A stretch of DNA of 64,000 nt from a virus, in the IMG/VR virus record IMGVR_UViG_3300030419_003648, positions 35,883-99,882 of that record, one strand, 5' to 3'. The position numbers were made by a program, and so were the translations under genes. This document shows, piece by piece, positions 2,943-57,474 of this stretch; position 1 is the stretch's first letter; every line of letters begins with the position of its first letter. Under the pieces are notes generated by a model. It saw only the letters and a program-made list of their open reading frames with translations. It ran no database searches and was not told the DNA's origin.

Positions 2943-2943
2943 A

Positions 2944-38684: not shown

Positions 38685-39365
38685 TTACTCAAAAAAGCCT
38701 TTTGTTTTCTTTGGCTTGCCATAAGGGAAAAGCTTATTGAGCTTGCTTTGTCGTTCCTTACATCCACAATCTTTATTCATAGCACCGAATACACTGTCTA
38801 CAACCTTTTTTATACCAGTTGCTTTTGTTATCTTTGCTACAGTATCACCTAAACCTCTAGACTCTTTAGGTATTTCTGGGTCACCCATAAAGAATCCTTT
38901 AGTAGCTTCTTCTTCTTCTTTTTTATCTTTTTCTTTACCGTCTTGAGTTGCCATTATTCCGTCCATTTCTTCCTGCCACTTTTGTTCACGTTGTTTAATT
39001 TGTGTATCAGTAACAGGGTAATCATTAACAAAGTTGTACCTCATGATCGGGTCTTGATTAGGTCCTACGCCCTCTTCCCACATATTAAAATAGTCTAACC
39101 TAGTCTGGCATAACGTGTGCAAATGTTTAGTCTTTATTGCTTTGTGTCTTGGGCATTTTATAAATTCTTTTTTAAAGTCACATTGACATGGTGTCACATG
39201 TTTAGGCGGCTCTATTACTTCGTCCCATTTTTTTAATAAAGTGTCAGAATCCCTAATATCTGGCCTTCTACTTGGGATTTGGTTTAATCTATCAACTTCT
39301 CTTTGAAGATTACTCATCTGTTGATGGTACTCTTCTTCTTCTGTTTTAAAGAATCCTTTTGCCAT
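38685..39365 (-). CDS. Virion-associated protein with three KGFF motifs
   Basis: A 226-residue charged, helical protein. The peptide KGFF occurs at residues 3-6, 156-159 and 222-225, i.e. near both ends and in the middle. Two Cys pairs (PCQC at 59-62 and DCGC at 199-202), a Cys-x-x-His (71-74), a Lys/Glu-rich linker (140-155) and a C-terminal RQSKLNKLFPYGK are notable. The last block is a pattern I associate with small proteins in the tail regions of marine-type phages. The ribosome-binding site AGGAG is five bases before ATG. Role unknown; perhaps a scaffold, chaperone or cleaved virion protein. Confidence 0.6.
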   Translation of the reverse strand: MAKGFFKTEEEEYHQQMSNLQREVDRLNQIPSRRPDIRDSDTLLKKWDEVIEPPKHVTPCQCDFKKEFIKCPRHKAIKTKHLHTLCQTRLDYFNMWEEGVGPNQDPIMRYNFVNDYPVTDTQIKQREQKWQEEMDGIMATQDGKEKDKKEEEEATKGFFMGDPEIPKESRGLGDTVAKITKATGIKKVVDSVFGAMNKDCGCKERQSKLNKLFPYGKPKKTKGFFE

Positions 39366-39376
39366 TTTCGCTCCTA

Positions 39377-42300
39377 CTACTCTGTTATGTTGACCTTAAT
39401 CGGGGCATTTCCATCCATGTCTAAACCAAAGTCATATTTGATACTTGTAGCCATTGGTCCTATATAGGTGTCGTAACACTTGTCTCCACATTCATACCCT
39501 GTCATTGGACCTCTTGCATTTACACATTTTTGAGGGAAAAAGAACCAATATTCCATGTTAACAGGAGTGTTGCTATTTCCTTGTGCGCAATCATCTAATG
39601 GGGGTGGATACCCTACTATAACACTAAATTGGCCTCCATGCCTACTCCACGATGGATATAATTCTGCGTATGGATCGGTATAACTTGTTCTACTGAAATT
39701 ATATGCTTCCCATTGATTGACTGGCTTACCTTCATCATTTTTCTTCGCTAAACATTCTTCTTCCGTTTCTTTAGTTGCGTCACTACATGCGCCACAGTTC
39801 TCTTCGGCTTTATCATGTATTTTTCCTTCTCGGTCGTAGCAAAGCTCTATTTTTCCAGCGTCTTCTGCTTTAGGATCTCCAGCTGCTATAACGCCTTTAT
39901 ACATCCTTCTAGCTTCTCCAATCGCTCCAGTTCCACCTAGAGTAATTGATTCAGCAGATCTAAGCGATACAAATCTTTCAGGTGTAGTTTCTATATTTGT
40001 TTTTTCCGAAGAATCTCTTATTCCAAAAGGGTTTCCTATCCAAATTGGAGTCCCACCTAATACACGACACTCTTGTGAATGTGTTGTGGTTATTGTGCCA
40101 CCTTGATCATCTACCATACAAATAAACTGATTTTGAACTGTTCCATTTGATTCTAAACATTCATCAGCACTGTCTGCATCTACTTCTTCTGGTATGAAAG
40201 CTCCAGAACAAGCTCCATGTTTTGTTGTGGTTCTAACTCCACTTGGAGATACGCAAGTTCCAACCTTAGATCTATCCTTCGTGTAACATTTTCCGTAAAC
40301 TTCAACAAATTGACAATTACTTGATTGTTCACATAAAGATTTTTGGAGGTTTGGAGGTACAAGTTTGCCATCACCAAATTTAGGAACTCCATTGTCATGC
40401 ATGTCTTTTATTGATATTGAAGCGCCAGCTGTTACCGTTGCGCTTTTTAGATTTACGCAAGTAAATTCATCACTACTAGGATCTTTGTATAAATAACAAT
40501 CTGGCGAGTTTCCACAAGCAGTTTCGTTGCAACCTGAAAACGGGTAGACATCTGAGTCGTGGTCGTAAACATTTGATGAACGAAAATTACCAGAAGTATA
40601 TTCTTCTGCAATCTTTAAGTATGGAGTCTCATGAACATCATAGTTCAACTCTCCATGTATTGCGAACTCATTCGGCTTCAAAGGAAGTGGATACCATTGC
40701 CATCCATGTGATTCGCAATCGTCTTTTGTATTGAATAAAGCATTTTGACATTGCCTCAATCTAACAATATGCATGTCATCTATATCATGGTATGGACATC
40801 TTGTAACTTCCCTAGCAACTTCTGCACCGCTGGCGTCTTTTTCTATTATCACTACTTCGTGGCATAGCAAACACTTTCCTTGTGGGTAATCTTCAGTTGG
40901 CGGCTGACAAGCATTCTTCGTATAAAAAGCGTTTACTCTACAACCAATAGGACACCCTTCTTCGTATTGACCTGTTGGAAGTATTTTTGGCTCATTGTTA
41001 AATGGGTCTTCAAATTCACCTCGTGAATTTTTGTCTAGGTTTCTTCTTCCTATTACCCATTCGCCTCCAAATACATCTTCGCATAAGTATTCGTCTAACT
41101 CAGAATCTTCAGCTACTGTTCTCCATATGCCGTTTGGTACAAACTGATAATCAGCCGAATTTGATTGCGCGGCTTGGCTACAAGCATCTTCATATATGAT
41201 CGGGTCATTGTTTGCGTCATAAACTTCACTCCCAGACACTGGATCAATACATTTTCCTACCATGCAATCGTTAGGATTTTGTATGTTCTGTGTAACATTT
41301 GGATTGTTATAATCATAGCACTCACCAAGCGTAACGCCTTTACATGTAGCTCTATACATGATTGAGCCGCTGACTAAAACCTTTTCTCCATCATTTAAAT
41401 CATGATCTAGCACCGTCTCTATTACAGTGTGTGAGAAAGGATAAATCCACTTTGAATTGTTATTTTCACATGTTTTTTTAGTTGTATAAGCTCCATTTGT
41501 GCAATACCCTTTTGGATCAAATGGATTGATGTCATAGACATTTCTATAAGATTTTATACCGGCGGGTTCTCTTGGGTCGTGTACTGGAATAGGAGTGCTT
41601 GTAGTACCTTCAGTACCTCCTCCCATTTTTACTTCTTTGACTTCACTATACTTATTTAAGTATTCAGCTGTTGGTAAAGGTCCAACTCTTCCCGGAATCA
41701 TTACATGACCCAATTCATCTAAAGCAAGGCTTTCTACTTTTAATGGGTGTTGTGGTATTGAACTATCTGGGAGACCACTACGCAAACTACCGCGTGTGTC
41801 TTGAACGGTATCTACAGGCCAAGGGTGTAAACCGTATGGGCTAGGAAGGGTTTTAGGTTTCTTACCATCTATTCCTGAAAGCTCCCCTGACGAATTGAGA
41901 CTTCTGGAGTAGTCTCCTAAATGTCTATCGTACTTATGAGCAGCGCTTATTAGTTTTGTGACATCTGCAACCTTTATTTCCATGAATGGCTCGTCGCCAC
42001 GCCCTCTAGTCATATCTGAGTAATTTAGGTCACCGTTTGGAATTGCTTCTGTTAGTTTTGTTCCTCCAAATGGCAAGAATGGATTTCTTGATTGTCTATT
42101 TCTCACTCTGCCTTGCAATGGATGATATACTGCTCCCCCTTCTGCCTCAGTCTTATCTGCCATTCCTATACCAACAGTAGCACCTTTTTCATAACCGCAA
42201 TAACGACCTCCAAAGGTTGGTCCATAAGCGCCTACTACCAGAGTGCCTGAACCATCTTCCTGAACGTCTTTTACATAATAAACATTAAATGTTTCTGCTG

Positions 42301-45300
42301 GTTTATCTGGATACAATTTCATGCCAACTTGCTGACAGTCATTTGCTTGTTTAACGTCGCCGCCAGTAGCACACACTTCCATTCCGTACAAACCAGATGC
42401 ACCACTTCTAGCTACTGCTGTTGGCTGTGTAGGTCCAGTGTAAGTGCAACAACCAGTACATGGCCATTCTGGACCTCCACCCAAAATACAAACATTACCA
42501 GCCTTATAATATTTAAATCTTCCCTCTCCTATACCTAACTCATCTCTTTCATCGTTTACCTTTTTTCCACTCCAGCATCCATCACTATTAGCTCCGGGAT
42601 ATATTGGTGGATTACCTTGTAGGTCCACTGGCACATCAATGACTGCATCTTCTGAATTCCAGTAGGAGCAATTCATTATCTCCATCCACAGTTCCATGCC
42701 ACTACGTCTATAGCTATCAAAGTTGTCAAATCCACCCTGAATCATCGCGTCTCCGTCATGTGCAGAGGCACTTCCAATAGTAGATCCACAGCCTAACATC
42801 AACCTTGTAAAGAAGGCATCATGCTCGTCTGATGGCCCCGTAACATCATGAAAACCATTACTAATGCCGTATATAGCTTGATCACAACCATTGCATTTTG
42901 TGTTAATAGCTGGTCTACTTGTTCGGGCTTCTTCAATTCTTCCGGGGCCTTCGCCATACCAACTATTTGCTTTGCAGGTATCTTGTAAGCAAGCATCCCA
43001 CTCATCTGGATCTATTGATTTTGTTGGATTTGTTTCCCAGTCAGGATTCAGTTTCTTTAGACAGTCTCCTTTTACAGCTAAAGTAGCTCTAGCAACACTA
43101 CCAGCAACATTAACACATGCCCATCCACTTGCACAATGTTTAGGATAATCAATCATATGGCATGACTTCATTCCCACATCATTCATTTTGTGCCAACTAG
43201 AAGCCCATGTTACACCATTAAATTCCAATGGTATTGACATACTTCCAAATCCGGGAACTGCTTCACTTGAGCCAACCACTTTACAACTATTAGCTAAATC
43301 ATAACAATCAAGTTGAAAATCAGTTGTTATTTGTCTTGGTCCACAACCTTGTGGATAATAAAATTTTCCACCAGCATCTTTACAAGCTTCTTCGGTTGTA
43401 GCGTTTGCATTACCACAATCTGTTGGATCAGAAGCACCTGAACAATCACATTTTCCACCAACTCCTAAACAATTATCTTTTGGGCTTGTGCTTATCCCAT
43501 CTCTTAAACAGCTTCCTTCAAAACCTTCAGTACATAACTCTCCGGGATGACAATCATGAGATACTCTTTCGGGAAAACAAATACAAGGCTCGTAAGACCA
43601 ATCGTATCTTCCGTCTTCTTCACCCGCTTTTGCCTTTTTACACTCACCTAAAGTCCACGAATTTCCCGTAGGATCACCAGTATCCATATCAGTTTCGCAG
43701 TTATCATAATCATCACCAGTCTCGCCAGATACTATCACGCCTCCGCTTGCAGAACATGTAGCTTCATCAGTAACAAAATTACCTATTCTAGCTTTTGTAT
43801 CTTCATCTCTGCATATTTCTGCACAGTCAGGCACTCCATTATGTGTTACACAACATTTCCCGTCGTCTTCTGGCGCGTCAAAACCGTGCCATTGACAACA
43901 ATTACTTTGTGTCTCGTCTAAACAATTTGCTTCATCAAAAAACTTACCACAATTAACACTCGCACAGTTATCATCACTATCAGAATAAAATTTGCAAGTT
44001 GCTGTTGTTAGTCCAAAAGAATGCGTTTCCCCTAAGTTGTCAGAACCACAGGTAATTTTCTCGTTAATCATCCAGTCTTCTATTTCACGACATGTCCAAT
44101 AAGGATAATTCCGATCTAACAATCGTGAATCTTGATCGTTTGTCATACATTCGCAATTAGGACAACATGGATCATTTTTCAATGGTGCCTGCTGGCTATC
44201 TCTATAAACGCACCCACAATCCCTACAGTTTGTAGTTCCCATTACATTAGGACGTTTTCTGATAAACATGTCACAGTCTTCTGGGCGTTTAAGAGGTTCA
44301 AATTCACCTATTATTTTGCCATCACTGTCAACAACTTTATCACAGTCAGCTTTTCTGTACCTGACTAACCTTTCTCTGGTTTCCCCGTGAATACACTTTC
44401 CATAAGTTTCCCAGTTTCCTTTCCATGTTTCTCCGGCGGCTTCACATTCAACTTTATTGCTTTTGTCTGGGTTAGTACAGAATCCAGTTTCGCAATGTGG
44501 AATATCACTAACATTACAACCATGAAAGGTGTCTGAACAACAATAGCCTTGATGTCCTATAAATTCTGGTTTGCATATGTCTCGGCCACATCCAACACGA
44601 TTCCAACTACTATCTTGTGCAGTTAAAGTAGCAGTTAAAGTGTGAGGCAAGAAGTGGTCACAACAAACAGGGCATGTCCCTTTTTGTTCAACCTGCATAT
44701 ACCAGTCTTGCGCTCTATGTTCATACTTGTAGCCAATACCATCCCATCCCGGATGGTACAAATCGTCTAATTCATCTTTTGTAAAATGAGAAACATATCC
44801 AGCATTTACTCCTTCGTCGTCTAGCATCACTGCTAAAGCGCCAGTGTAGGGGCAGGTTTTGTAAGAAATAAAACTGTACGCATCTACATCAGTGTCAATG
44901 TCTACTTCTGACTCAGGAGGAGGAGGGCCAAATCTATTCTGCCCCCAACATCCTGAAAACGCGCCATCTCCCTCGCCGTTATTTTGAACGCAGCTATGAT
45001 AGTTGCCTTCGGACCATGCAAGCGCTCTATCTTTTCCATTATGTTTTTGAGTTCCAGTGCAACTATTTTTGTCTATTTGTGGTAATAAAGTTTTTTCTTC
45101 AATCCAAGTTCCATTTTTTTCGTTTCGGCAATTTGACTCGGTTTTGAATTCTTGCTGTATTTCAAAGTCAACTAGCTTTCCGGGAGTCCATACTGGCTCT
45201 CCACTTTCCGCTAAACAGTCTGCTTTATGTTTGTGATCTCCTTCACTACATGTTCCACAATCCCCATAGGGTTCAACCTGAATTTGATTATTAATTATGC

Positions 45301-48300
45301 AGGATTTTTTCGTTGGGTGTACGCATCTAGTATCATCTCGTTCACAAGAAGCAGTACCTTCATCAGGATACAACCTATAATGCTTGGCTAGTTCAACACA
45401 TTCCTCTTTAGTCATAGACATCTCATGAGTGGTTTCCTCACCAGTTTTTTTCATGACTTTGCAAAAGCCATAACGCTCACAAGACTGTCTTCCACCGCCT
45501 TCTTTTTCAGGTGTTTCAGGATCGTCATAAATACCTATGACATTTGTTATCTTGAAAGGTCCTTCAAGATCTTCATCTTCCTCATTTCTTTTTGTTTTGC
45601 AAAATTCTTGTTCTTTTAATTGCTCAGGAGTTAAACGAACTTCGCCTAATTTTTTGTCACGAACTTTCTTCTCTAAGAAGTTTCTCTTTGATACACAAAT
45701 ATCTGGGAAGCTTGTTATTTTTGGAAGTTCCCCATTTACTTTTTTGGGATCTGCTTCGGCAAATGGAACTATAGTACCATCTGTATATTTGAGTGTGAGT
45801 TCAGTCTTTTGTTCTTGTAGTATCGTTTGCTCAAGGTCACCCATTATGCAAACGCCGTCATCGCAACCAAGACGTTCTAGTTCTGGTAAATTAGCAAAAG
45901 CGTTTATTGTTCCATCAATAGGCTTTCCGTCACAGGCAAACAGGTCAAACGTATCTCTTGTGATATTTTTAGCTACGAACCAAGGTGCTGGATCTGGGTC
46001 TCTACCATTTATTACAGAGCCATAACAAGCCAAAAATTCATCGGGACACTCATACGTTCCGTCGTCTTTGTATTTACCCGGACATTTTGCCGCCGGAAAC
46101 ATTATGTCGTCGCATCCATCTCCAACACAAGGATTGTAAATTTTGTCTTGGTATTGCGTCTCTTGCCAATCTCTATTTGACAGTACATTAGCTGCAAAGT
46201 TACCCATGATGCCATAGGTCATAACCTTTGTACCTTCGACCAACCTGTGATTTCTTGAGGTTATGGTTATAGGAGATGTATTACTAGCATCTTGAATTGA
46301 TACTTCTCTTCCAGTTCCAATGCAATGATTGTTAACAAAGCTAATTAAACCTTCGCCTTTTGGGAATAAGCCTGTTTTTCCCCAATAGTCTAAAGAATCA
46401 TTATGAATTGCATGTACTCTATCTCCATCATTTTGGCCTGCTTGATTAGCCGTATGACCACTTATTGTTATACCTCTTTCTCCAATAATCCTTGAATCTG
46501 TCGCTGCGGCTATGACATTTGAAGGAACAGGAAACACTGGCTCGCAATGAGAGTCAGCCGTCAAAACTGCTTGAGAATAATGTCTTTCTTCTATCCATTC
46601 TCCCTGAGCGCATTTTTCACTGAGTGTACATGTACATTCGCCTTCATCGTTAGCAGGTCTGGTTAGTGCAGACGCTGTAAATACTTCTCCTCCAGTGCCT
46701 TGATCTTCTCCTATTGATCGACACAAGTCTTCATCGGTTGGGGGGATGCCATTTCCTTCATCATCAAGTATTTCCTCTCCAAACCAAATACAAGTTTTTC
46801 CTTCTTCAAGACCTTTAGACTTGCAATTTTCGGCTTCATCGTCTTCTGACTCAGGCTGTGATGGTAAGTCATCCTCTTCTACTTTGTATTCAGGAACGTC
46901 ACCTTCGCCTTCAACTTCGACTACACACCGACATGTTCCAGTGTTAACAGTTTCGTCAGGAGCTACGGGAGGAACTCTACATTTAGAACCTTCTTTTACT
47001 AGGTCTAATGTCCATGTAACCGGACGGCTACAACCTCTTTCGTCCTCGCAGCATATTTGTACTTCTCCACCACCTTGTTCACAATCGCTTTTAGTAAATT
47101 CATCGCTTAGAGTCTTGTAAGAAAACGTAGAACTGTCTTCATTTTCTGTTTTGCATCTGCTGGGTATTGGAGATTTTCCGGCCTCTCCGCTACAGTCGCA
47201 CGCGTCTAGATTAGCTTCTGATTTTTGCCAAGCATCCCAACCTAAACTTTGCCCACAAGCATGGCTAGTGAGACTACCTTCCAATCCATCTATTGCGTCT
47301 CTAACTCCCTGACTTACTGATTCACATACAGCTGGAGTAGCTTTGTCATAGAGGAAGTCATGGGTGAACCAATAATCCAACCCCATATTTATAAACCACT
47401 TCCCTCCACCACCTGCTTTTTGCGCAGCACATTTTTGCCAATATCTATGGTCGTTTACTGCTTGTTCTATTCCTTTAGCATAATTTTGTGTTTTTTCAGT
47501 GGCTTTAAATGGTTGAGGTCTATAGTTAAAAGCTTTTAGTTTTAGATGTCCTAGTGGATTATGATTTCGTGGTATTGGGTTTCCACTTTCGTAATAGGTA
47601 TATCTTTCGCAAATAGCGCCTTCGCTCTTTTCAAGAAATTGAGGGTTAGGCCAAGCACACCAATTTTTTCCATCTTCTGGGTCTTCAGGATTTCCGGGGA
47701 AAAAGCCAGCAGGATTACCAAAGTAATGGGACATATTACTGTTCCATCTTTGTTGTACTTCACTCCAGCCACTATTAAGAGTGTTTTTGTCGCTAAGTGT
47801 GAGATTAAAATCAGAACAGTTCAAGAACTGATCTATAGGGAAGTAAAGCATTAATTCTTCCCCGCATCCCATTTTATTTTTGCCATAGACACTAGTGTTT
47901 CTTTCGCCTTGATCGTCAAAACAATCAGCCCAAAAACCACACTCTCGTAATGTTACAGTCCAATAAGACTCAGTATCGGCATGTATCGTTATTCTTTCTT
48001 CTTGGTTTTGTATAGCAACGCAACCAGCCTCAGCATGTATAGGAGCATCAGTAGCAGAAATGCCATCTGGAGTAAGAACTAATTCCCTGTAAGGTGTAAA
48101 GCATACGTTATTTTTTCTAGTATTAGCATAACCACCAGAAACTTGAGGTGTATGACTTGGATGACTTTCAGATGTCATCATGCCACCGCAACAACTTTCA
48201 GGATCTCTTTCCCAGTCTACCCATTGGTGAGCTAGAAAATGATTCTTTGGTTCTTCTTCTCTACACTCTTTTTCGTTATCAATACCCTCTATAATTTCTC

Positions 48301-49585
48301 CGGTGTTTTTAGCTTTGCAAACACCTCTCAGTTGACATCCTGCTTCACTATCAAGCCAAACAGAAGCAACGCCACTTTCGTCAAATTTAGTTTGGCAATG
48401 ATTTATTATGTCATTTAGAGTTACCCATATATTGCCACCTGATTCACATGATTTTTTGTCAGTACCGACACCTGACGCAGTTGGCTCGAATTGCGAACCT
48501 TTTTTTACACAATGCGCAAAAGCGTATGTATATTGCATAGAGCCAGTGCAATAGTTGTAGCCAGAAACTTCGATGTCTTTTCCGGTTTGGACGTTTCTAC
48601 ATTTAGGCTTTTTAATAGCTGGAATTTGCCCGTCATGAAAACACTTACTTACATGTGTTATTTCACGTTTATGTGTTGGATCATCAATGACGGCAGTGCT
48701 ATGACCACAACGCCCACTGCTTGCAGTTATAACATGACCATCTTCGTTATAACAAACATAATGAGCATCTTCTATTAAAGAACTTCCAGTGTATAGGTCG
48801 TTTCTGTGTAGACTATCTTCTTCTTCTGTTACGGTTATAGTTCCATCGTCATTTATCACATGGTCTACATCGGTCTCAGAATTAGAAATAAATTGTTCGC
48901 CCCATTCATCTGGGGTTAGAGAAAGTTCTTCAAATGATCTTGGCCATGTGCCTTCTCCTACAAGAGCTTTATCATAATTTGGTCTACCTGAATACTCACC
49001 TTCCCATTCTGCTAATCCATTCCCGTCTTCGCTAGCTTTAACTTCTCCCAAATACTTGTTCTGACCACGCCAGCATTGGGATTCTTTTCCATTTGGTAAA
49101 GTTGTAACCTTGCAGGGGTCACAGTTTCTTGGAGTTCTTAAACCGAATGGATTAGAAGCAGTAGATATATCAAATTCTTTTTGATTGCCAAACTGATCAA
49201 AATTATCAACATCACCAGTGACTTCAGTATCATCATCAGTGCAGCATTTTCTACCTCTATAAACACCATTAGTGTATTTTAGGTGCCATACATCCCCTCC
49301 CGAAGCTCCAGCCCTTGCTTCTACCCTCCCAGTCTCACCTTTCACCAATGTAATGACTATTTCTGGTGGTAATGAACATGTTGCACCAGTAATACTATTA
49401 CAGCTAAGATCTACACACCCGCACCCTTCTTTACAGAATCTTCCCGCACCTCGATGTTCGTGAGCTTCTGTATAGCTATAGTCATCAGAAACATCAGGAC
49501 CCCAAGCTATCTTGCCAGAAGCTCTGTTTCTTTTTTTGGGATTAGTCGGATCATATGATGTATCCCAAGGATCTCCTACGCCCAT
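39377..49585 (-). CDS. Giant Cys-rich virion protein, 3402 aa
   Basis: One of the largest single proteins a phage of this type could carry. It is strikingly rich in Cys, in pairs and CC or CGC clusters throughout, with a recurring unit of the form T-x2-(E/D)-C-x(3-6)-G-x-W (for example DKKSCESGGNIW, TKDDCESHGWQW, VECEAAGETW). No signal peptide or membrane helix is seen. At 45895-46280 a familiar phage beta module (SPITITS...HRLVEGTKV) is interrupted by a Cys-rich segment. Position among tail genes suggests a fibre, adhesin or baseplate component. Many disulfides or metal sites are possible. Starts at ATG with AAGGTAGGA upstream; the gene upstream ends ten bases before it. Confidence 0.85.
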   Translation of the reverse strand: MGVGDPWDTSYDPTNPKKRNRASGKIAWGPDVSDDYSYTEAHEHRGAGRFCKEGCGCVDLSCNSITGATCSLPPEIVITLVKGETGRVEARAGASGGDVWHLKYTNGVYRGRKCCTDDDTEVTGDVDNFDQFGNQKEFDISTASNPFGLRTPRNCDPCKVTTLPNGKESQCWRGQNKYLGEVKASEDGNGLAEWEGEYSGRPNYDKALVGEGTWPRSFEELSLTPDEWGEQFISNSETDVDHVINDDGTITVTEEEDSLHRNDLYTGSSLIEDAHYVCYNEDGHVITASSGRCGHSTAVIDDPTHKREITHVSKCFHDGQIPAIKKPKCRNVQTGKDIEVSGYNYCTGSMQYTYAFAHCVKKGSQFEPTASGVGTDKKSCESGGNIWVTLNDIINHCQTKFDESGVASVWLDSEAGCQLRGVCKAKNTGEIIEGIDNEKECREEEPKNHFLAHQWVDWERDPESCCGGMMTSESHPSHTPQVSGGYANTRKNNVCFTPYRELVLTPDGISATDAPIHAEAGCVAIQNQEERITIHADTESYWTVTLRECGFWADCFDDQGERNTSVYGKNKMGCGEELMLYFPIDQFLNCSDFNLTLSDKNTLNSGWSEVQQRWNSNMSHYFGNPAGFFPGNPEDPEDGKNWCAWPNPQFLEKSEGAICERYTYYESGNPIPRNHNPLGHLKLKAFNYRPQPFKATEKTQNYAKGIEQAVNDHRYWQKCAAQKAGGGGKWFINMGLDYWFTHDFLYDKATPAVCESVSQGVRDAIDGLEGSLTSHACGQSLGWDAWQKSEANLDACDCSGEAGKSPIPSRCKTENEDSSTFSYKTLSDEFTKSDCEQGGGEVQICCEDERGCSRPVTWTLDLVKEGSKCRVPPVAPDETVNTGTCRCVVEVEGEGDVPEYKVEEDDLPSQPESEDDEAENCKSKGLEEGKTCIWFGEEILDDEGNGIPPTDEDLCRSIGEDQGTGGEVFTASALTRPANDEGECTCTLSEKCAQGEWIEERHYSQAVLTADSHCEPVFPVPSNVIAAATDSRIIGERGITISGHTANQAGQNDGDRVHAIHNDSLDYWGKTGLFPKGEGLISFVNNHCIGTGREVSIQDASNTSPITITSRNHRLVEGTKVMTYGIMGNFAANVLSNRDWQETQYQDKIYNPCVGDGCDDIMFPAAKCPGKYKDDGTYECPDEFLACYGSVINGRDPDPAPWFVAKNITRDTFDLFACDGKPIDGTINAFANLPELERLGCDDGVCIMGDLEQTILQEQKTELTLKYTDGTIVPFAEADPKKVNGELPKITSFPDICVSKRNFLEKKVRDKKLGEVRLTPEQLKEQEFCKTKRNEEDEDLEGPFKITNVIGIYDDPETPEKEGGGRQSCERYGFCKVMKKTGEETTHEMSMTKEECVELAKHYRLYPDEGTASCERDDTRCVHPTKKSCIINNQIQVEPYGDCGTCSEGDHKHKADCLAESGEPVWTPGKLVDFEIQQEFKTESNCRNEKNGTWIEEKTLLPQIDKNSCTGTQKHNGKDRALAWSEGNYHSCVQNNGEGDGAFSGCWGQNRFGPPPPESEVDIDTDVDAYSFISYKTCPYTGALAVMLDDEGVNAGYVSHFTKDELDDLYHPGWDGIGYKYEHRAQDWYMQVEQKGTCPVCCDHFLPHTLTATLTAQDSSWNRVGCGRDICKPEFIGHQGYCCSDTFHGCNVSDIPHCETGFCTNPDKSNKVECEAAGETWKGNWETYGKCIHGETRERLVRYRKADCDKVVDSDGKIIGEFEPLKRPEDCDMFIRKRPNVMGTTNCRDCGCVYRDSQQAPLKNDPCCPNCECMTNDQDSRLLDRNYPYWTCREIEDWMINEKITCGSDNLGETHSFGLTTATCKFYSDSDDNCASVNCGKFFDEANCLDETQSNCCQWHGFDAPEDDGKCCVTHNGVPDCAEICRDEDTKARIGNFVTDEATCSASGGVIVSGETGDDYDNCETDMDTGDPTGNSWTLGECKKAKAGEEDGRYDWSYEPCICFPERVSHDCHPGELCTEGFEGSCLRDGISTSPKDNCLGVGGKCDCSGASDPTDCGNANATTEEACKDAGGKFYYPQGCGPRQITTDFQLDCYDLANSCKVVGSSEAVPGFGSMSIPLEFNGVTWASSWHKMNDVGMKSCHMIDYPKHCASGWACVNVAGSVARATLAVKGDCLKKLNPDWETNPTKSIDPDEWDACLQDTCKANSWYGEGPGRIEEARTSRPAINTKCNGCDQAIYGISNGFHDVTGPSDEHDAFFTRLMLGCGSTIGSASAHDGDAMIQGGFDNFDSYRRSGMELWMEIMNCSYWNSEDAVIDVPVDLQGNPPIYPGANSDGCWSGKKVNDERDELGIGEGRFKYYKAGNVCILGGGPEWPCTGCCTYTGPTQPTAVARSGASGLYGMEVCATGGDVKQANDCQQVGMKLYPDKPAETFNVYYVKDVQEDGSGTLVVGAYGPTFGGRYCGYEKGATVGIGMADKTEAEGGAVYHPLQGRVRNRQSRNPFLPFGGTKLTEAIPNGDLNYSDMTRGRGDEPFMEIKVADVTKLISAAHKYDRHLGDYSRSLNSSGELSGIDGKKPKTLPSPYGLHPWPVDTVQDTRGSLRSGLPDSSIPQHPLKVESLALDELGHVMIPGRVGPLPTAEYLNKYSEVKEVKMGGGTEGTTSTPIPVHDPREPAGIKSYRNVYDINPFDPKGYCTNGAYTTKKTCENNNSKWIYPFSHTVIETVLDHDLNDGEKVLVSGSIMYRATCKGVTLGECYDYNNPNVTQNIQNPNDCMVGKCIDPVSGSEVYDANNDPIIYEDACSQAAQSNSADYQFVPNGIWRTVAEDSELDEYLCEDVFGGEWVIGRRNLDKNSRGEFEDPFNNEPKILPTGQYEEGCPIGCRVNAFYTKNACQPPTEDYPQGKCLLCHEVVIIEKDASGAEVAREVTRCPYHDIDDMHIVRLRQCQNALFNTKDDCESHGWQWYPLPLKPNEFAIHGELNYDVHETPYLKIAEEYTSGNFRSSNVYDHDSDVYPFSGCNETACGNSPDCYLYKDPSSDEFTCVNLKSATVTAGASISIKDMHDNGVPKFGDGKLVPPNLQKSLCEQSSNCQFVEVYGKCYTKDRSKVGTCVSPSGVRTTTKHGACSGAFIPEEVDADSADECLESNGTVQNQFICMVDDQGGTITTTHSQECRVLGGTPIWIGNPFGIRDSSEKTNIETTPERFVSLRSAESITLGGTGAIGEARRMYKGVIAAGDPKAEDAGKIELCYDREGKIHDKAEENCGACSDATKETEEECLAKKNDEGKPVNQWEAYNFSRTSYTDPYAELYPSWSRHGGQFSVIVGYPPPLDDCAQGNSNTPVNMEYWFFFPQKCVNARGPMTGYECGDKCYDTYIGPMATSIKYDFGLDMDGNAPIKVNITE
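45895..46280 (-). other. FCCH-like phage tail module split by a Cys-rich insert
   Basis: Inside the 3402-aa protein, the strand pattern SPITITSRNHRLVEGTKVMT, then YGIMGNFAAN, followed later by FVAKNITRDTFDLF and DGKPIDGT, matches a module common in phage tail proteins (HxLxxGxxVxVxGxxGNxAAN ... TFxL). Between the AAN and the FVAKN parts lies about 60 residues with several Cys (PCVGDGC, KCPGKY, YECPDE). A second, looser copy lies at about 41065-41430 (HDLNDGEKVLVSGSIM, then NGIWRTVAED) with a similar Cys-rich interruption. Confidence 0.6.
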
Positions 49586-49594
49586 TTTCCTACC

Positions 49595-51397
49595 TTATAA
49601 TGCTGCTGTTCTTGGATAATCATCATCTGGTCCGCAATCTTCTGCGGTAGCAAAACCCTGAGCAAAGAATTTTCTAGTGCAAGCTGTCATAGACCCTCTT
49701 TCACATCCAGCATTAGATATAATTTCCATACCGTAAAATTCACCTTGCAAAATGATATGAACAGGTATAGTTTCTTTCACAGTAATAGGCTTTCCTACTT
49801 TTTGTCCGCAACTTGCAGCGTCTGTTCTTGTATATTCATAAGTTATCTTCTTACCAGTATCATAACTAAAAAATGAATCTCCGACCATTAAACCTTGTCC
49901 AAGTGGGTTTTCTAGAAAGACTTTTTGGTAGAGCATACTTCTTGCTCTCTCTGTCATTGTTCCATCTGCTATTTTTTCTCCAATACCTTCTGGATTTCCA
50001 AAATAGCTATCTCCCCATCCATGACAAGGGTTTCCAGCTCTTCTATTGCCGGGATATCCTCCAGAACTTTTTCTAAACTTATCTGTGCAATTTGAAGGAG
50101 CATTTTTTGATCCTACTTGATGATGAACAGATCTTAATAAAATTCCATGATAAAACGGTTGACATCCATCTTTAAAGTCAGAGCAAGCTGTTATGTTTCC
50201 ATATGTTCTACATCTACCGCACCAAGCATGATCCTCTGGGTCAAATATTTCTATATCTGGATAATACATACTTTTAGGGAAGTATGATGTGTACTTACAT
50301 TCTTGTGTAGGGCATGGATTTCTATATAGTCTTCCGGGACTACTAAGACCTCCAACACCAAAATGAAAAGAGTTTGCACCATCCATACCCGTTTCAGGAA
50401 GTATACATCGAGTAGCTTTTGTGAGATATATTTGATTGAATTGACCACCAACCCAAACTTTTCTATCTCTATCCCATCTTAAGTCGATTGGGCCAGCTTT
50501 CCATTGGTCTTGCCTAGACATATAATATGGCAAAAAGTGCTTATGATCTTGTGGTGGACTTGCAGATGTTGCTTTGAATTTTTCGCTAGCATGAACACCC
50601 ACGGGCATACCATAAGTATGAGATTCGGGATCAGCATCTTTACGTTCAGCTTCAAACCTTGCATTTGGAACAGGCATACCATCAGTATCATAACCCCAAC
50701 CAGCCATGACCATCGGCCCTCTTAGACCCATAGGTCTAGCAACATTTTCAAATGTTCCCTCGGCACTTCCCTGTTGCTGAGCATCTCCAGCGTAACCACC
50801 CGCAGATATACTAGGGTTTCCAATATTTTTGTTTTTTACAACTGCTGAAATACTATGACCAGAAGCATATGGATTTAAACTAGCTGATGTTACATAAGCA
50901 AAATTACCAGCCAAAGACCCAAAAGCATTACCACCATTGTGCCACCAATTATCAATACTGTTTTTTACTACACCTTTTGGATCCAACGTTGAAAATGGAC
51001 GTTCAAAAGTTGGAAAGTATTCATGAGTTCCAACTTCAACATTCGCATCTTTGTCACTACCTTCTTCACTTATAATTTTAAAAGTAGTTGAAAATGGGAC
51101 AAACAAACCATCTAGACTAACACCAGCGCTTCTTTGCCAAGCTGGGTTACTAGGAAAGCTCTTCATAAGATTAGAAGTTGGAGTGGTAGCAATAGCAGCT
51201 TTACCAGTGCCGACTCTTTTTAATTGTCCCTGTTTACCCGCTACTGGATGATCAGTACCATAGCTAATGGGCATACCTTTAGCGTTTTTCATATTTGTTT
51301 CTTCGGTGTAATAAGCACCGACTAAAAACATATGACTAATATCGCTCTCGGCATTTTTGCCAGCGTCAACATTTCTTGGATTATTGGTATTTGCCAT
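49595..51397 (-). CDS. Virion structural protein, 600 aa
   Basis: A 600-residue protein with no close family recognised. The N-terminal half is rich in Gly, Asn and Ser; the block KAGPIDLRWDRDRKVWVGGQ near the middle is a pattern I have come to link with baseplate or tail proteins of marine phages. From there to the end, Cys becomes frequent (PCPTQECKY, CGRCRTYGN, AGCERGSMTACTRK), echoing the giant neighbour. It lies between the 3402-aa and 2025-aa genes. A tail or baseplate part is likely. Confidence 0.72.
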   Translation of the reverse strand: MANTNNPRNVDAGKNAESDISHMFLVGAYYTEETNMKNAKGMPISYGTDHPVAGKQGQLKRVGTGKAAIATTPTSNLMKSFPSNPAWQRSAGVSLDGLFVPFSTTFKIISEEGSDKDANVEVGTHEYFPTFERPFSTLDPKGVVKNSIDNWWHNGGNAFGSLAGNFAYVTSASLNPYASGHSISAVVKNKNIGNPSISAGGYAGDAQQQGSAEGTFENVARPMGLRGPMVMAGWGYDTDGMPVPNARFEAERKDADPESHTYGMPVGVHASEKFKATSASPPQDHKHFLPYYMSRQDQWKAGPIDLRWDRDRKVWVGGQFNQIYLTKATRCILPETGMDGANSFHFGVGGLSSPGRLYRNPCPTQECKYTSYFPKSMYYPDIEIFDPEDHAWCGRCRTYGNITACSDFKDGCQPFYHGILLRSVHHQVGSKNAPSNCTDKFRKSSGGYPGNRRAGNPCHGWGDSYFGNPEGIGEKIADGTMTERARSMLYQKVFLENPLGQGLMVGDSFFSYDTGKKITYEYTRTDAASCGQKVGKPITVKETIPVHIILQGEFYGMEIISNAGCERGSMTACTRKFFAQGFATAEDCGPDDDYPRTAAL

Positions 51398-54300
51398 TAG
51401 CTTTGTCCAGTTTCTGATAATAAGTCTCTGCGAATTCTCACAATAAAGTCCTCAAAAGCCTTCTCGTTTTCAAACATTCTTGCTTCCATGTTTTTAATTC
51501 TTTCTTCATTTCTTTGAGAAAGATCTCCAAACTTTCTAGCAGTAGTAAGATTATACGTAGTGGTAACACCTCCAGATCCTATTTGCACATTAACATCTGT
51601 TACATATGGGCCTTGCACCTCCTTAAAGGCGGGATTACCATTAGCGTCTGTTCCGTCAGCAATCGTAAGCTTTATCTGAGTGCCAGCAAAATAAGTTGGT
51701 AAACCAGCTAAACTCACCGTTCCAGTTTCAAGTGTATTTTGTTGCTGTATTAAAGCTCTTTTAGCCTGAGCAAGTGCAAAACGATTCAATTCCCCTTCAC
51801 TACCAAACGTAGCAGGATGCAGAGAAGTATCTTGCTTATACTCCGTTTTGCCAAATCCAGTTCCTATAGCCCAAGGACCCCAAGTGTATCTTGTGCTTTG
51901 TTGAGGAACTCCAGCATAAAAAGGCTTATAAGCAGCATCTGCAATCTGGCTCTTAGATCCATCAGGAGCTATCATTGGATGGGTTAAAGTGTCATTACCA
52001 AACGCTGCCAAGTTTTGCCACGCGGCTATTTCTGGACTAGTACCACTAGATCTAGCCCAACCTCTTTGTAAACAATTTGAATTTTTATGATGTATTAATG
52101 GTACACAAATTTCACCCTCACCCATGTCATCAGTAGCCATTGCATAATCTACATGACCATATCTAACAGCATTCGGGATAGTAATCAAAGCATAAGGTTT
52201 ATAAAATGCAAACTCAGTTAATTCATCTGCTCGCAACTTCCTTTGGTTTTTAGGAATATACTTATGAAGAGTATCTCTAGTAAGTAACTTCCTACTTTCT
52301 TTAATAAACTCAGGAGCTTGCCTTGGCTGTCTTTGTTTAGGGCTTCTAATAGGATATGTTTTAGCATGTAAAAGTTCCCACATTGGTCTAGTTTTTAACC
52401 AATAAGTTTTAGGATCAACATCAGCTCTGACAAAAACTTTACCTGAATATCCAATTGCAATATTATTTCGATGTTGATTTTGTTCTAGTTCCTCACGGGT
52501 ATATCTCCTTTCGTCTGGGTTAGACATTCTCTCTGGATCAATATCGCCAAAATTTAAACTTACCTTGTCTCCTTGCAGTCTTCTTGTTTCTTTATGAGGA
52601 AAAGCTACAAAAGCTGCTAAGTTACCACCCTCCCAGAAGTTTATGTCTTGTGGGTAACTAGTATTTTTGTATGTACTCGCTTCCCAATCTGGGTCATAAC
52701 CTTCTCCCGGCCATCCAGCACCAACAATATCCCATTTTTGTTCTGATTGTAGTGGGTCTATCCAAATTCCTTTGAGTTTTTCGCATTCTGCTCTATCTGG
52801 AACCCAAGCATGATTCTCGTCACTACCAGCCGCCTTCTTGCAAATACCTACTCCAAATTTTCTAAACCACTCACTCAACAATCCATGAGCGCCCCAATCA
52901 AAACCACCAACTTCTGAGAATACACCATTCCGTTGTCCGCATTCAGTCTCGTCTGTCACAGGTACAAATGGTACTATATAATCACCATCATCATCTTTTT
53001 GATGAATAATGTTTCCCATGTCGTCTAAACAAGTACTTCTTGTTTCTTCACATTCTGCCTGTGTTTCAATCCAAGGATTTGCACACCCAACTACTGTAGG
53101 TGGATTAAAAGGCAGTGGCATTAAATACTTTCTGCCGTAGAAATTATTTGCTAAGTCTTGAACTTTCTTGAATACATCTTGCATTGTCACGCCAGACGCT
53201 TCGTATTCATTCCACTTTATTTTCTTTCTTCCGCAAACTAAACCTGCTTCTGTTTGGCCTTCTCTTTCGTCTGTACCTCTTGAAAGACCATCTTCAATTG
53301 GGTTCATTGGTTTGTCATTACCCATAGCTGCTAGGTTTTGCCACCCTGCTGCTTGCTCAGGAGTAATTCCGTTCATTGCAATGTTGGCTTCTGTAGGGCA
53401 GTAATTGCACCATTTTCCACCTTGAGCTTGGCAATAATAACACGGCAAGAAAGGTTGGAAAACTCTCAAATAGTTGAAGTAGTTGTCAAAACCTATAGAG
53501 GCATGTCTCAATTCTGTGACTGTCGCCATGTAGTAACCACTGGCGTTGTCTATGTTTATACTAGATGGACCTCCTTTAAAACCAACAAACTGAGTATCAC
53601 CTAAATCTACAGGAATAGTCGCAGTGTTTGGTATTTTAGGGAATCCTTTTAGGTCTCTTGAGCCTTTTGTTTTCTTTTGATCCCATTCCTCTCCCATTCC
53701 AACACAGTCTTGTCTATTAGTCCATTGTGGATCTGTACATGTACCTTCTAATGACACAACTGGATTGATGTATCCCGGACCGGGATTATTCTTATTTGGA
53801 TCTACTGCGCCGGGAGTATTTGGCTCTTCTCTTGTGCATAGCGGATCCCAAACCTTTGTTATCCATTCAAAATTACCATATAATCCCGGATTCTCGCTTC
53901 TCTCTCTTTTTACACCTTTAGTAACTGAACTACCATCATCATTTACTGTAGTTTCATCTACTAATACTTGTTCACATTCTGCTCTAGTATTAAAAGTCTG
54001 ATCTTGATCTTCTCTTGTGTACTGATGAGAGCCGGTAAGACCTAAAGCTTGAGCGTTGGTATCTTTATCTTTACACCAACCTCCGTTAGGTTGTCGGAAG
54101 TTTCTCCAAGTACAATCTTCAGCGTATGGGCCATTGTCATTTCCTTGAAAACTATTTCCTTGTGTTCCATTTACTCTAGCTGTTGACTGACTAGGGCTTG
54201 GATGTCCTGTGGTAGAATCTATATACATGACAGCGCCTACCCAAGAAGGAACTCTTTGCCCTGAACTACCACCATCTAAGTAACCAGTGTAATCTTTTTC

Positions 54301-57300
54301 TTCCAAAGCAGAGCATAGGCTTGACTTATTAATTAACTTTCTACCCTCAGCACCTAAATCTGTTGGTTCATTATCCTCATCTACAGCAAGTATAGGAGCT
54401 GTTTCTAATAAATTTCCAACGGTTGCCCCTTTAACATCTATATTTGTTCTTTGTTGCCTATTTGCTGGAGTCAAAGCTTCTAGATTTTCAACTTTAAAAC
54501 AAGCTTGCGTACAAGACCATTCGTCACGACCCCAATCTGAACCGGGCAAATACAAACCAGCTCCTAACGGAGGCGCACCGGGTATGTTTCCAGTGATAGA
54601 ATCTCCAGCTGAAGTGACACAATTAGCCCAAGGAATACAATCAAATTTAAATATTCCAGCACATCCTATTGGGTGACCATTTCTAGCTGTAGTACATTCA
54701 TTTTCTGGGTCTACACCTCCATTGTCTTTAAACTCCTGCTCTGGATCACACTGACAAATTTCAGGCATGTTATCGCAAGCTGGTTGTGGCGACATGCCAC
54801 CATCCCAAGTAGATGCTTTTTCATTAGGTCCATTACAACCCGGATCTTTTACGTTGGCATACCACGTACCACCATTATTTACACAGTCACCTTGATTATT
54901 GTATTGACCTTTATCGCAATAACTTCTTGTATTATCATACCCAGCTTCACACGACTCTTTAGTATGACAAAGCTGACCATTTTCTATACCCTCTTTAGTA
55001 GCATAAGATCCATCACTATAAGTACATTTTGGTTTACTTACACATTTACCTAAACCGGGATTGAAAAATGCTATACCTCCAAAAAGACCATCGTAAGGAT
55101 GAAAGTCTCTATAAGGGTCATCATCATGGAACATGCCCATGATAGGTTCCCCTCTTGTTTGCATGTCAATTTGTTGTCCAAATTCAGCCTTTTGTACAAA
55201 CCTTTTTGAAGTAAATCCCCAAGCTGGAAACAAATCTATATAACCATCCATAGGATGTTGAGGCCATTCAAGTTCATTGCCCTCATTATCTTTTAGACTT
55301 GGGTTTTTGTCTGGTACGCCGTTATAGTCGCCGTTATTTTCTGTGAACCATTTGTCAACATCTTTATTATTAGGTATGTTGAACATAAATGGATCGGCTC
55401 TGTTTTCCTTAAAAAATGTCGTGGTATTAGTAGCTTGAGTCAATCGACCAATAGGAATTGGCCTAGCATCGAAATAATCATTGTCTACTAGATCAGCTAT
55501 TTCATCTTTTAGAATAGGTCTGCCATCAACTGCATCAAAGAAGTTTGGAATAGTTCCTTTTTTCCCGCCCCAATCGGCATTGTAGTCCAAGAAATGTGAA
55601 ATATCATGATCTGCGTTTCTTTTTTCAGGTGATCGCCTTGCTTCCCAAATCCGTTCATCGTACAAACTGGTTTCATAGGCTTGAAGTGCAGCACCATCTA
55701 ATTCTAAAAAAGGACCTGAATCTATAAGAACATCATCGCGCTCTGGATCAACATCACCATCAAAATACTTTTCAGTATCTTTATTGAAAAAGAAGTCTTC
55801 TCTACGTCTACTACCTAGTATCTTGCCCTTCCCTCTCCAATTGTCAGAAGGTTTAGATCTTTGACCTCCGGTCATTGAAACTCCAACAACTCTGGTCAAT
55901 GGAGCGCCTATGGTAAACATTCCAGTTGTAGGATCTGTATGTTCATAACCAACATCAGCACTAATTATTTTATTAGCCCAAGGACCTACCTTTAGAAAGA
56001 GAGACTGATCCAATACTGTTTTTATAATACCCGGTTGTATATCTGCATTTTTTGGTATTGGTATAACTCTTATGATTCCAGCTTTATGTTTGTGCATATC
56101 AAACAATTTTTGTTCTACTGGATTACCAGTTCCATTTCTAGGAACGTACAAGTCTACAAAAAAGTCAGCGCCAGCGGCTGTACAAATTTCTTGTATTAAT
56201 TGCAATAAATTTTTTGTACCTTTTATTCTAAAATCATCACCAACAGTACCCATCCCAATATTGTCACTATATTCAACGTCTTTTACTGTTGGATTGTAAA
56301 TGTTGTTTAAGTTATACAACGGGCTAAGGTCTATGGCGTACTTATGGACTCCTGCATTATTGGGAAATCCAGTTGGAGAATTTTCGTAAGAAGTACTTGA
56401 GCCAAAAGTAGTAGGTCTAGAATTTAAACCATAGTAGAGAGGGCCACCATAAGGCTCTTCATCTTTTATATATTCTTTCATAGTTCCAGAAAGAATCATG
56501 TCTAATGCTGGCAATATACCTTTATTATGTTTGTAACCCCAAGCATTAATATAATCAGCCGTTGCAGAAAACCAAGGTATGCCATGCTCATTTGTGTCAG
56601 ATTGACCAAAGCCTCCAGCTTCCTCATAATATCCAAATACATTGACTACGTTATAATAACCGTTGTAACCCTCTTCAAATTTTCTTTGAAACTTTGCGTC
56701 TTGCCCAAGACGTTCAAGCGTTTCTTTAGGGGTTATCGCTTTTTCGTCTGGATGATAATGTTGATCCATATACCAAGCATCAGCTGGTGCTGTATGGCCC
56801 TGAAAAGAATCTAATATTACAGTAGTGTTCTCTAATATTACTCTTGGGTCTTCTACAACTACGCTGTAAGTTTGACCACTTCCACTCCAGTCTCTTTTAT
56901 AACTTTTTAATATTCCATTAAACTCAAACGTTAAAGGGCTTGTAGATGCATCGCCAGTGTTAGCATTTGCACAAGTTCTATTTGATACACAAGTAGAGGA
57001 AAGTCTAGCGCCATCATAATATCTGAAATAAACTGGCTCTCCGGGTGTTGGCGCCCAGAATAAGTCTCCGGCTGGTAAATTTAGATTGTTTCCTTTTCTA
57101 TAAACATGAGTACCAACGCTTGATCTATCACCAGCAACAAAAGGATCCAAGCCTAATTGCCTACCATTGTCTCTAACAAGACCTATAGGAAAAGCAGTAG
57201 GATCCCAATGATGATAACCTTCTGTAATTGCATCTCTTACAGTATTAGCAGTCATCTTACTGTCTAAATTCCATTCGTCCTCTACGAGACTAACATTGAG

Positions 57301-57474
57301 GGTAGAAGAATTTCCATTAAAACCTAAATTTAATGCAAATTGACTTATAGAAGCCCCAAGAAAAGTCTGTTGAAAAATAACAAAACCATCATCTCCCGTA
57401 TCTCCTGAATAGTAAGGGAGGATGGATTCGTTTATATTTCTTTCTCGTAATGGATAAGTATAGACAGTTGACAT
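51397..57474 (-). CDS. Baseplate/tail protein with Cys-rich insertions, 2025 aa
   Basis: A 2025-residue virion protein. The N-terminus (YTYPLRERNINESILPYYSG) leads into FNGILKSYKRDWSGSGQTYS and VVVEDPRVILENT, a pattern seen in tail hub proteins. The middle has the same Cys repeat as the giant neighbour (CVNNGGTW, RQDCVGMGEEW, RAECEKLKGIW), and two copies of WQNLAA-x-GND (about residues 1371 and 1813). The C-terminus (FGDLSQRNEERIKNMEARMF) is a coiled-coil helix ending RRDLLSETGQS. A hub or tail-tip role is a reasonable inference. The start overlaps the upstream gene in TAATG. Confidence 0.78.
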   Translation of the reverse strand: MSTVYTYPLRERNINESILPYYSGDTGDDGFVIFQQTFLGASISQFALNLGFNGNSSTLNVSLVEDEWNLDSKMTANTVRDAITEGYHHWDPTAFPIGLVRDNGRQLGLDPFVAGDRSSVGTHVYRKGNNLNLPAGDLFWAPTPGEPVYFRYYDGARLSSTCVSNRTCANANTGDASTSPLTFEFNGILKSYKRDWSGSGQTYSVVVEDPRVILENTTVILDSFQGHTAPADAWYMDQHYHPDEKAITPKETLERLGQDAKFQRKFEEGYNGYYNVVNVFGYYEEAGGFGQSDTNEHGIPWFSATADYINAWGYKHNKGILPALDMILSGTMKEYIKDEEPYGGPLYYGLNSRPTTFGSSTSYENSPTGFPNNAGVHKYAIDLSPLYNLNNIYNPTVKDVEYSDNIGMGTVGDDFRIKGTKNLLQLIQEICTAAGADFFVDLYVPRNGTGNPVEQKLFDMHKHKAGIIRVIPIPKNADIQPGIIKTVLDQSLFLKVGPWANKIISADVGYEHTDPTTGMFTIGAPLTRVVGVSMTGGQRSKPSDNWRGKGKILGSRRREDFFFNKDTEKYFDGDVDPERDDVLIDSGPFLELDGAALQAYETSLYDERIWEARRSPEKRNADHDISHFLDYNADWGGKKGTIPNFFDAVDGRPILKDEIADLVDNDYFDARPIPIGRLTQATNTTTFFKENRADPFMFNIPNNKDVDKWFTENNGDYNGVPDKNPSLKDNEGNELEWPQHPMDGYIDLFPAWGFTSKRFVQKAEFGQQIDMQTRGEPIMGMFHDDDPYRDFHPYDGLFGGIAFFNPGLGKCVSKPKCTYSDGSYATKEGIENGQLCHTKESCEAGYDNTRSYCDKGQYNNQGDCVNNGGTWYANVKDPGCNGPNEKASTWDGGMSPQPACDNMPEICQCDPEQEFKDNGGVDPENECTTARNGHPIGCAGIFKFDCIPWANCVTSAGDSITGNIPGAPPLGAGLYLPGSDWGRDEWSCTQACFKVENLEALTPANRQQRTNIDVKGATVGNLLETAPILAVDEDNEPTDLGAEGRKLINKSSLCSALEEKDYTGYLDGGSSGQRVPSWVGAVMYIDSTTGHPSPSQSTARVNGTQGNSFQGNDNGPYAEDCTWRNFRQPNGGWCKDKDTNAQALGLTGSHQYTREDQDQTFNTRAECEQVLVDETTVNDDGSSVTKGVKRERSENPGLYGNFEWITKVWDPLCTREEPNTPGAVDPNKNNPGPGYINPVVSLEGTCTDPQWTNRQDCVGMGEEWDQKKTKGSRDLKGFPKIPNTATIPVDLGDTQFVGFKGGPSSINIDNASGYYMATVTELRHASIGFDNYFNYLRVFQPFLPCYYCQAQGGKWCNYCPTEANIAMNGITPEQAAGWQNLAAMGNDKPMNPIEDGLSRGTDEREGQTEAGLVCGRKKIKWNEYEASGVTMQDVFKKVQDLANNFYGRKYLMPLPFNPPTVVGCANPWIETQAECEETRSTCLDDMGNIIHQKDDDGDYIVPFVPVTDETECGQRNGVFSEVGGFDWGAHGLLSEWFRKFGVGICKKAAGSDENHAWVPDRAECEKLKGIWIDPLQSEQKWDIVGAGWPGEGYDPDWEASTYKNTSYPQDINFWEGGNLAAFVAFPHKETRRLQGDKVSLNFGDIDPERMSNPDERRYTREELEQNQHRNNIAIGYSGKVFVRADVDPKTYWLKTRPMWELLHAKTYPIRSPKQRQPRQAPEFIKESRKLLTRDTLHKYIPKNQRKLRADELTEFAFYKPYALITIPNAVRYGHVDYAMATDDMGEGEICVPLIHHKNSNCLQRGWARSSGTSPEIAAWQNLAAFGNDTLTHPMIAPDGSKSQIADAAYKPFYAGVPQQSTRYTWGPWAIGTGFGKTEYKQDTSLHPATFGSEGELNRFALAQAKRALIQQQNTLETGTVSLAGLPTYFAGTQIKLTIADGTDANGNPAFKEVQGPYVTDVNVQIGSGGVTTTYNLTTARKFGDLSQRNEERIKNMEARMFENEKAFEDFIVRIRRDLLSETGQS

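Follow-up and report, generated by a model that had tools for sequence, protein, structure and literature searches.

The DNA studied here, referred to as the window, is a stretch of 64,000 nucleotides that corresponds to bases 35883-99882 of a linear, 99,882-base IMG/VR virus contig, and the end of the window is also the end of the contig. Its rightward genes include UvsX/RecA, DnaB helicase, primase, a deoxynucleoside monophosphate (dNMP) kinase, DNA polymerase III alpha and three glycosyltransferases, and a leftward block at 37.9-64 kilobases (kb) holds the tail module. At the centre of this block lie three adjacent genes, called A, B and C, which encode a giant cysteine-rich protein, a 600-residue tail protein and an enlarged tail hub. 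A and C carry copies of a small two-cysteine sequence, the CC-GGW unit, that is the main subject of this report. A first-pass annotation of the same DNA had already pointed to a cysteine repeat shared between these genes. The genes, regions and unit copies are as follows, with bit scores from the profile search.

39377..49585, minus strand: A, giant cysteine-rich tail-tip protein, 3402 residues, 179 cysteines (5.26%); from the open reading frame (ORF), cysteine count and homologs.
48401..48466, minus strand: CC-GGW unit in A, residues 374-395; 12.8 bits; the first-pass example near 48445.
44399..44488, minus strand: CC-GGW unit in A, residues 1700-1729; 23.6 bits; a site with a unit in no other aligned sequence.
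43352..43420, minus strand: CC-GGW unit in A, residues 2056-2078; 10.5 bits; lineage-specific site.
41426..41512, minus strand: CC-GGW unit in A, residues 2692-2720; 25.2 bits; conserved site, with a unit there in 5 other sequences.
40670..40756, minus strand: CC-GGW unit in A, residues 2944-2972; 26.6 bits; conserved site, with a unit there in 4 other sequences.
49595..51397, minus strand: B, 600-residue tail protein with 13 invariant cysteines, without the unit; homologs 52-55% identical.
51397..57474, minus strand: C, enlarged central tail hub, 2025 residues; aligned to minimal hubs of 799-1059 residues.
55855..57399, minus strand: N-terminal hub region of C, about residues 26-540; from the alignment, its counterpart in the homolog L051 being mostly above 90 in predicted local distance difference test (pLDDT).
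53545..55059, minus strand: cysteine-rich insertions in hub C, residues 806-1310; from cysteine placement.
54832..54924, minus strand: CC-GGW unit in C, residues 851-881; 24.1 bits.
53662..53745, minus strand: CC-GGW unit in C, residues 1244-1271; 24.9 bits.
52759..52842, minus strand: degenerate unit in C, near residues 1545-1572; listed by pattern, below 6 bits in the profile search; the first-pass example near 52775.
51397..51963, minus strand: C-terminal conserved region of hub C, residues 1838-2025; conserved in 22 of 22 hub homologs.

Relatives of this phage were found only in IMG/VR, and all of them are fragments of uncultivated viruses, including a near-identical twin of the window phage (G001). 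The gene order in relatives is tape measure, LamG protein, D, hub, B and A; C belongs to the tail-tip cluster that follows the tape measure, as seen in G001, G002, G004, G008 and others, and A lies two genes past the hub wherever relatives have it. The locus is thus the tail-tip module of an uncultivated phage, and the first-pass description of these products as tail proteins is borne out by the gene order in relatives and by the hub fold of the core of C. Gene position indicates that A is probably the exposed, receptor-facing distal tip; in the distant phages L041, L043 and L048, shorter cysteine-rich genes directly follow the hub. None of the ten G001 structural genes tested could be recognised as a sheath gene, hence the window phage is apparently long-tailed and non-contractile. 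Its terminase is approximately 25% identical to those of Microcystis phage MaeS and of Bacillus phages such as Stahl and SPbetaL7.

C is, on the evidence of a modelled homolog, the central tail hub (gp27/VgrG/gpD superfamily) with cysteine-rich insertions. It aligns at both ends with proteins of 799-1059 residues from other viral contigs, and the smallest of these hub homologs, L051 (799 residues), gave an AlphaFold model (33 rows, mean pLDDT 64.9) in which the N-terminal region was mostly above 90 and the remainder was poor. Among structures in the PDB, the L051 fold matched VgrG first, followed by contractile-injection-system spikes, the monocin and diffocin tips, Mu gp44, HFTV1, 80alpha and other phage hubs, with a probability of approximately 1.00 for the best. 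The assignment rests on these matches and on the alignment of C to L051, the protein that was folded in place of C itself. VgrG, Mu gp44, the PVC and AFP spikes, the monocin tip and the HFTV1 tail protein therefore resemble the predicted core fold of the smaller homolog of C, and share with it the place after the tape measure. In contrast to these known hub and spike proteins, to which it has no sequence match, C of the window is approximately 2.5 times the size of the minimal homolog and adds cysteine-rich insertions, with 34 cysteines in 1320 insertion residues against 5 in 705 core residues (Fisher p=0.003). Such insertions also occur in most related contigs with long hubs, although not in L041 and L043. 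No cellular homologs of the hub were found.

The alignment of relatives refines the unit to C-x(10-16)-C-x3-GG-x-W, with Thr or Asn 3-4 residues ahead of the second cysteine. The motif is present at all six positions given as examples in the first-pass annotation (A near residues 380, 1718 and 2958; C near 865, 1258 and 1566). The pattern in its literal form, T-x2-[EDNQ]-C-x(3-8)-G-x(0-2)-W, has two matches in A (against a shuffle mean of 0.08) and none in C, the true unit having an additional upstream cysteine. The description of both proteins as loaded with the repeat was overstated, given that only five copies in A and two in C reach 8 bits and the copy near 52775 stays below 6; the repeat itself is real and beyond chance. 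Its sharing between genes extends further than had been proposed, as it is carried by A, by C and, in two relatives, by D (D_G2 752-778 and D_G3 748-775).

The first-pass annotation had named shuffled cysteine-rich sequence as the yardstick for the repeat, and the unit lies far above it. A profile trained on relatives only, with the window and its near-identical twin excluded, scored units of the window at 14.0, 13.6, 9.8 and 9.6 bits; shuffles yielded no more than 0.005 hits each at a threshold of 8 bits, whether cysteine positions were left free or fixed. Iterated over all tail-tip proteins, the profile reached 8 bits or more for 84 units, an in-sample count, against 0.05 per shuffle set with cysteine positions fixed and 0 hits at that threshold in 312 non-tail ORFs. 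Where the second cysteine was located, 73 of 82 units have another cysteine 8-18 residues upstream against 30 expected, the commonest offsets being 11 and 16. The alignment of A holds 53 units at 25 sites, of which four are occupied in at least five sequences and most in a single sequence; judging from this alignment, the unit is gained and lost among A relatives. In the AlphaFold model, the unit at A 2692-2720 consists of a strand, a cysteine-bearing helix (54-59) and a Trp-bearing strand, in a block with pLDDT 65-88.

Only about 10 of the 179 cysteines of A sit in units, so most lie outside them. They are nevertheless strongly conserved: 106 of the 179 are invariant in 7 sequences, against 15% of all residues, and across the wider A family 114 of the 179 reach 80% conservation or more, complete frames in that family spanning 3096-4029 residues with 3.9-6.0% cysteine. 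In C, 19 of 39 cysteines are invariant in 6 sequences, against 14% of all residues. The cysteine content expected of structural proteins in a disulfide-stabilised tail is raised in A, at 5.26% compared with an average of 1.64% in non-tail ORFs of the window and 0% in the twin's tape measure. Cysteine-rich stretches had also been reported for the 600- and 865-residue proteins. B, the smaller of the two, has 13 cysteines (2.2%), all of which are invariant in 7 sequences against 40% of all residues; none is kept in the outgroup protein, and B lacks the unit. The 865-residue protein E is cysteine-poor (7 cysteines, 0.8%) apart from one local cluster. The number of cysteines in B is odd (13) in every relative, and at least one must therefore be unpaired within the monomer, which leaves room for an intermolecular bond.

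A heads a family of giants of approximately 3100-4000 residues that is without a Pfam, PHROG, PDB-sequence or cultured-phage match. A itself had no match in Pfam, PHROG or PDB sequences, profiles built from the alignments of A and of C had no relevant match among PDB sequences, and none of A, B, C and D had a whole-family match to Pfam or PHROGs above noise. In the collection searched, no cultured phage had a homolog of B, C or H, or of the small forms of the hub and D. The idea of an undescribed class thus stands for the giant A family; it does not stand for the unit, which also occurs in T4 gp8, T4 gp10 and many IMG/VR contigs.

When the first unit profile was run against 177,635 PDB sequences, T4 gp8 ranked first (E=0.0037), followed by a gp8 relative, T4 gp10 (E=0.95) and then IL-17RB. 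The consensus unit also retrieves gp8 and gp10, and in a search of phages it picks up the gp8 of many T4-like phages, with E values of at least 1. At the level of linear sequence, residues 139-163 of gp8 (baseplate wedge, PF09215, PHROG 977) and 331-352 of gp10 domain 3 (PF22670) appear to share one motif with the unit, C-x(9-10)-C-x3-GG-x-W. The T4 proteins are wedge proteins of a contractile tail with one match each and none outside the unit, whereas here several units lie in the hub, D and the giant A. Membership in the gp8 family was rejected, as neither A nor C has a gp8 match in Pfam or PHROGs and only the 25-residue unit is common to them. A three-unit consensus found 62 loci in 2.9 million IMG/VR viral contigs, in which 73 proteins hold 128 units. 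It gave four matches across 257 billion bases of cellular genomes (two in Woesearchaeota, one each in Nitrospirae and Allochromatium); the Woesearchaeota and Nitrospirae matches are cysteine-rich proteins with hydrophobic, secretion-like N-termini, and the Allochromatium match is a phage-like protein. L138 and L140 are giant Woesearchaeota proteins with 4.2-4.4% cysteine, hydrophobic N-termini and the CC-GGW unit. Literature searches in an open library found no description of the unit.

We consider it probable that disulfide-clipped mini-folds stabilise an exposed, modular, receptor-facing tail tip, with the disulfides, their timing and the receptor role all being inferred. The 2025-residue C would sit as central hub where the tail tube ends, followed by B (600 residues) and A (3402 residues), which probably build the exposed, receptor-facing tip. 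The unit would be a mini-fold of approximately 25 residues, comprising a strand with the first cysteine, a short Thr/Asn-capped helix with the second cysteine, a GG turn and a second strand with Trp at its end, and its two cysteines most likely form one local disulfide that clips it together. Such a clipped mini-fold could be inserted into loops of the hub, D and A without a larger domain, and additional disulfides probably join the other conserved cysteines of A and B. The cytoplasm in which phage proteins are made is reducing, so oxidation would be expected at or after assembly or lysis, and the tip would become resistant to proteolysis and shear in water. A disulfide or stability module with paired cysteines was among the roles proposed by the first-pass annotation. 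It is favoured by the upstream-cysteine excess, by cysteine conservation and by the cellular carriers of secretion type, which argue for an extracytoplasmic, disulfide role; covariation gives no significant sign of the pairing. Covalent host attachment, also proposed, has no evidence in its favour.

Several observations weigh against the disulfide-clipped tip. Patterns of cysteine loss in A are identical in 13.6% of near and 10.8% of far cases (p=0.19), so that losses are not significantly paired between neighbours. The model of A 2650-3001 is mediocre (pLDDT 65, 11 sequences), and a fold search with it against the PDB and BFVD gave no match. The hub model is of a distant homolog, L051, with low template modelling (TM) scores since only part aligns, and gene position is the sole pointer to a receptor-binding role of A. 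With 34 more diverse units in the profile, gp8 still ranked first but weakly (E=0.33) and gp10 was lost. Moreover, a T4 review names Cys555 as the only gp10 cysteine conserved in all T4-like phages (PMC3004832), hence the gp10 copy of the unit is not universal.

A precedent for a cysteine-rich tail also provides a competing explanation. In Agrobacterium phage Milano, a disulfide network was seen experimentally in the sheath and baseplate, with 2.1% cysteine in structural proteins compared with 0.9% overall in T4 (PMC10811340). The likeness lies in the unusually cysteine-rich structural tail proteins of a tailed phage (PMC10811340). Milano has a contractile sheath, 2.1% cysteine and shown bonds, whereas the window phage has 5.3% in A, cysteines at the tip, no sheath recognised in the tested genes and bonds that are inferred. 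The cysteines here could likewise be inter-subunit cross-links, or a redox switch reduced on host contact as proposed for Milano, given its interchain bonds in sheath and baseplate (PMC10811340) and the odd, invariant 13 cysteines of B with at least one unpaired per monomer. We regard this as unlikely, because the unit looks like a local intrachain pair and the genes tested revealed no sheath gene. Quite improbable, in our view, is that the unit is a lectin-like or trefoil-like receptor-binding module in which the disulfide is incidental. Its placement at the tail tip and its 25 mostly single-sequence sites in A, as expected of a diversifying surface, suit that role, as does a weak likeness of the three-copy consensus to Trefoil PF00088 (E=0.001, below cut-off) in the cysteine-helix-GG-aromatic pattern. 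However, the unit also occurs in the T4 baseplate proteins gp8 and gp10 and is inserted in the hub and D, and identity with the Trefoil (P-type) domain was rejected, given two conserved cysteines rather than six in three disulfides and 19.4 bits against a cut-off of 21.

A metal role, with the unit and the cysteine-rich blocks as small structural zinc or iron-sulfur sites, had been raised by the first-pass annotation and is disfavoured; we rate it as very doubtful. Local CxxC or CC pairs with His do occur in A (for example, the invariant CPVCCDHF near residue 1639), the neighbouring 226-residue protein G has a C-x-C...CPRH stretch, and cysteine-rich phage proteins of cytoplasmic origin can hold zinc. 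Yet in A CxxC is not enriched (90 against 99.5), cysteine at position -2 is depleted (51 against 100) and His is invariant at just 6 of 80 positions, and the unit has two cysteines and a Trp with no conserved third or fourth ligand. A is therefore not classed with zinc-ribbon-like metal sites, which carry paired CxxC/CxxH ligands, though single local sites may occur. Chance or composition, by which cysteine-rich sequence would throw up the pattern, can draw on the 5.26% cysteine of A and on a loose C..G..W/F pattern that itself counts 269 against 175 in shuffles. It can practically be dismissed in view of the 84 against 0.05 profile hits, the held-out search, the cysteine-fixed shuffles and the presence of gp8 and gp10 among the top PDB sequence matches.

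A bolder form of the disulfide-clipped tip, which we hold to be rather unlikely as a whole, would be a new tail-tip type: a family of approximately 3100-4000 residues and 4-6% cysteine, heavily disulfide-bonded extracellularly, diversified as a mobile two-cysteine mini-fold is gained and lost, and assembled with the aid of phage thiol enzymes (the tandem thioredoxins of the closest relatives, whose active sites are WCGPC and WCPHC). Two overlapping thioredoxin-like genes with these active sites, the second of DsbA type, lie just left of the window (L011:6095-6382 and 6375-6674; G000:C1 26095-26674). The pair is present in six close members and the tandem is kept in five relatives. No thioredoxin was found in three larger, more distant contigs that carry A (G010, G011 and G016), and ribonucleotide reductase genes lie approximately 3 kb downstream of the pair in the window phage; for both reasons we do not claim phage thiol enzymes as a general partner of tail folding. 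Also in L011, positions 2633-2926 encode a small protein that is hydrophobic over an N-terminal stretch and has a tail dense in cysteine (PESCEDCEEACKCDIDDGDCVCDTDCACPVCA), similar in L132 and looser in L135, with no Pfam match.

The remaining genes of the tail module flank A, B and C.

57474..60044, minus strand: D, 856-residue tail protein between the LamG protein and the hub; from gene order.
60044..62641, minus strand: E, 865-residue protein with a Laminin_G_3/ConA-like lectin domain and a local cysteine cluster; Pfam PF13385, E=4.5e-11.
62648..63982, minus strand: F444, C-terminal part of the tape measure, cysteine-free, cut by the contig end; its C-terminus resembles the tape measure of the twin.
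38685..39365, minus strand: G, 226-residue protein with 6 cysteines that adjoins A; syntenic in relatives.
37954..38637, minus strand: H, 227-residue protein; identity 79-95% across 7 relatives, 51-59% for an eighth.

F444 is read as a truncated tape measure, since its C-terminus resembles the tape measure of G001 (2563 residues, cysteine-free, PHROG 28) and the record ends just beyond its start. H is conserved far above its giant neighbours, yet is without a match among cultured phages. In the rightward genes, DNA polymerase III alpha is in two ORFs (8289-10211 and 11047-12657 of the window) with an RNase_T-type exonuclease ORF (10401-11081) in between, and the three glycosyltransferases, all of group 1, lie side by side at 13558-17319. 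An Rfam search of the window found nothing.

The unit links T4 baseplate proteins, environmental phage tails and cysteine-rich proteins of archaea and bacteria, and a simple profile of it could locate tail-tip proteins among unannotated giant phage genes. A further question is how a phage protein with up to approximately 190 cysteines can fold in, or leave, a reducing cytoplasm. If the disulfide-clipped tip is true, disulfide-stabilised tails would not be a peculiarity of Milano, and would instead be a broad design, concentrated at the tip, in uncultivated phages.

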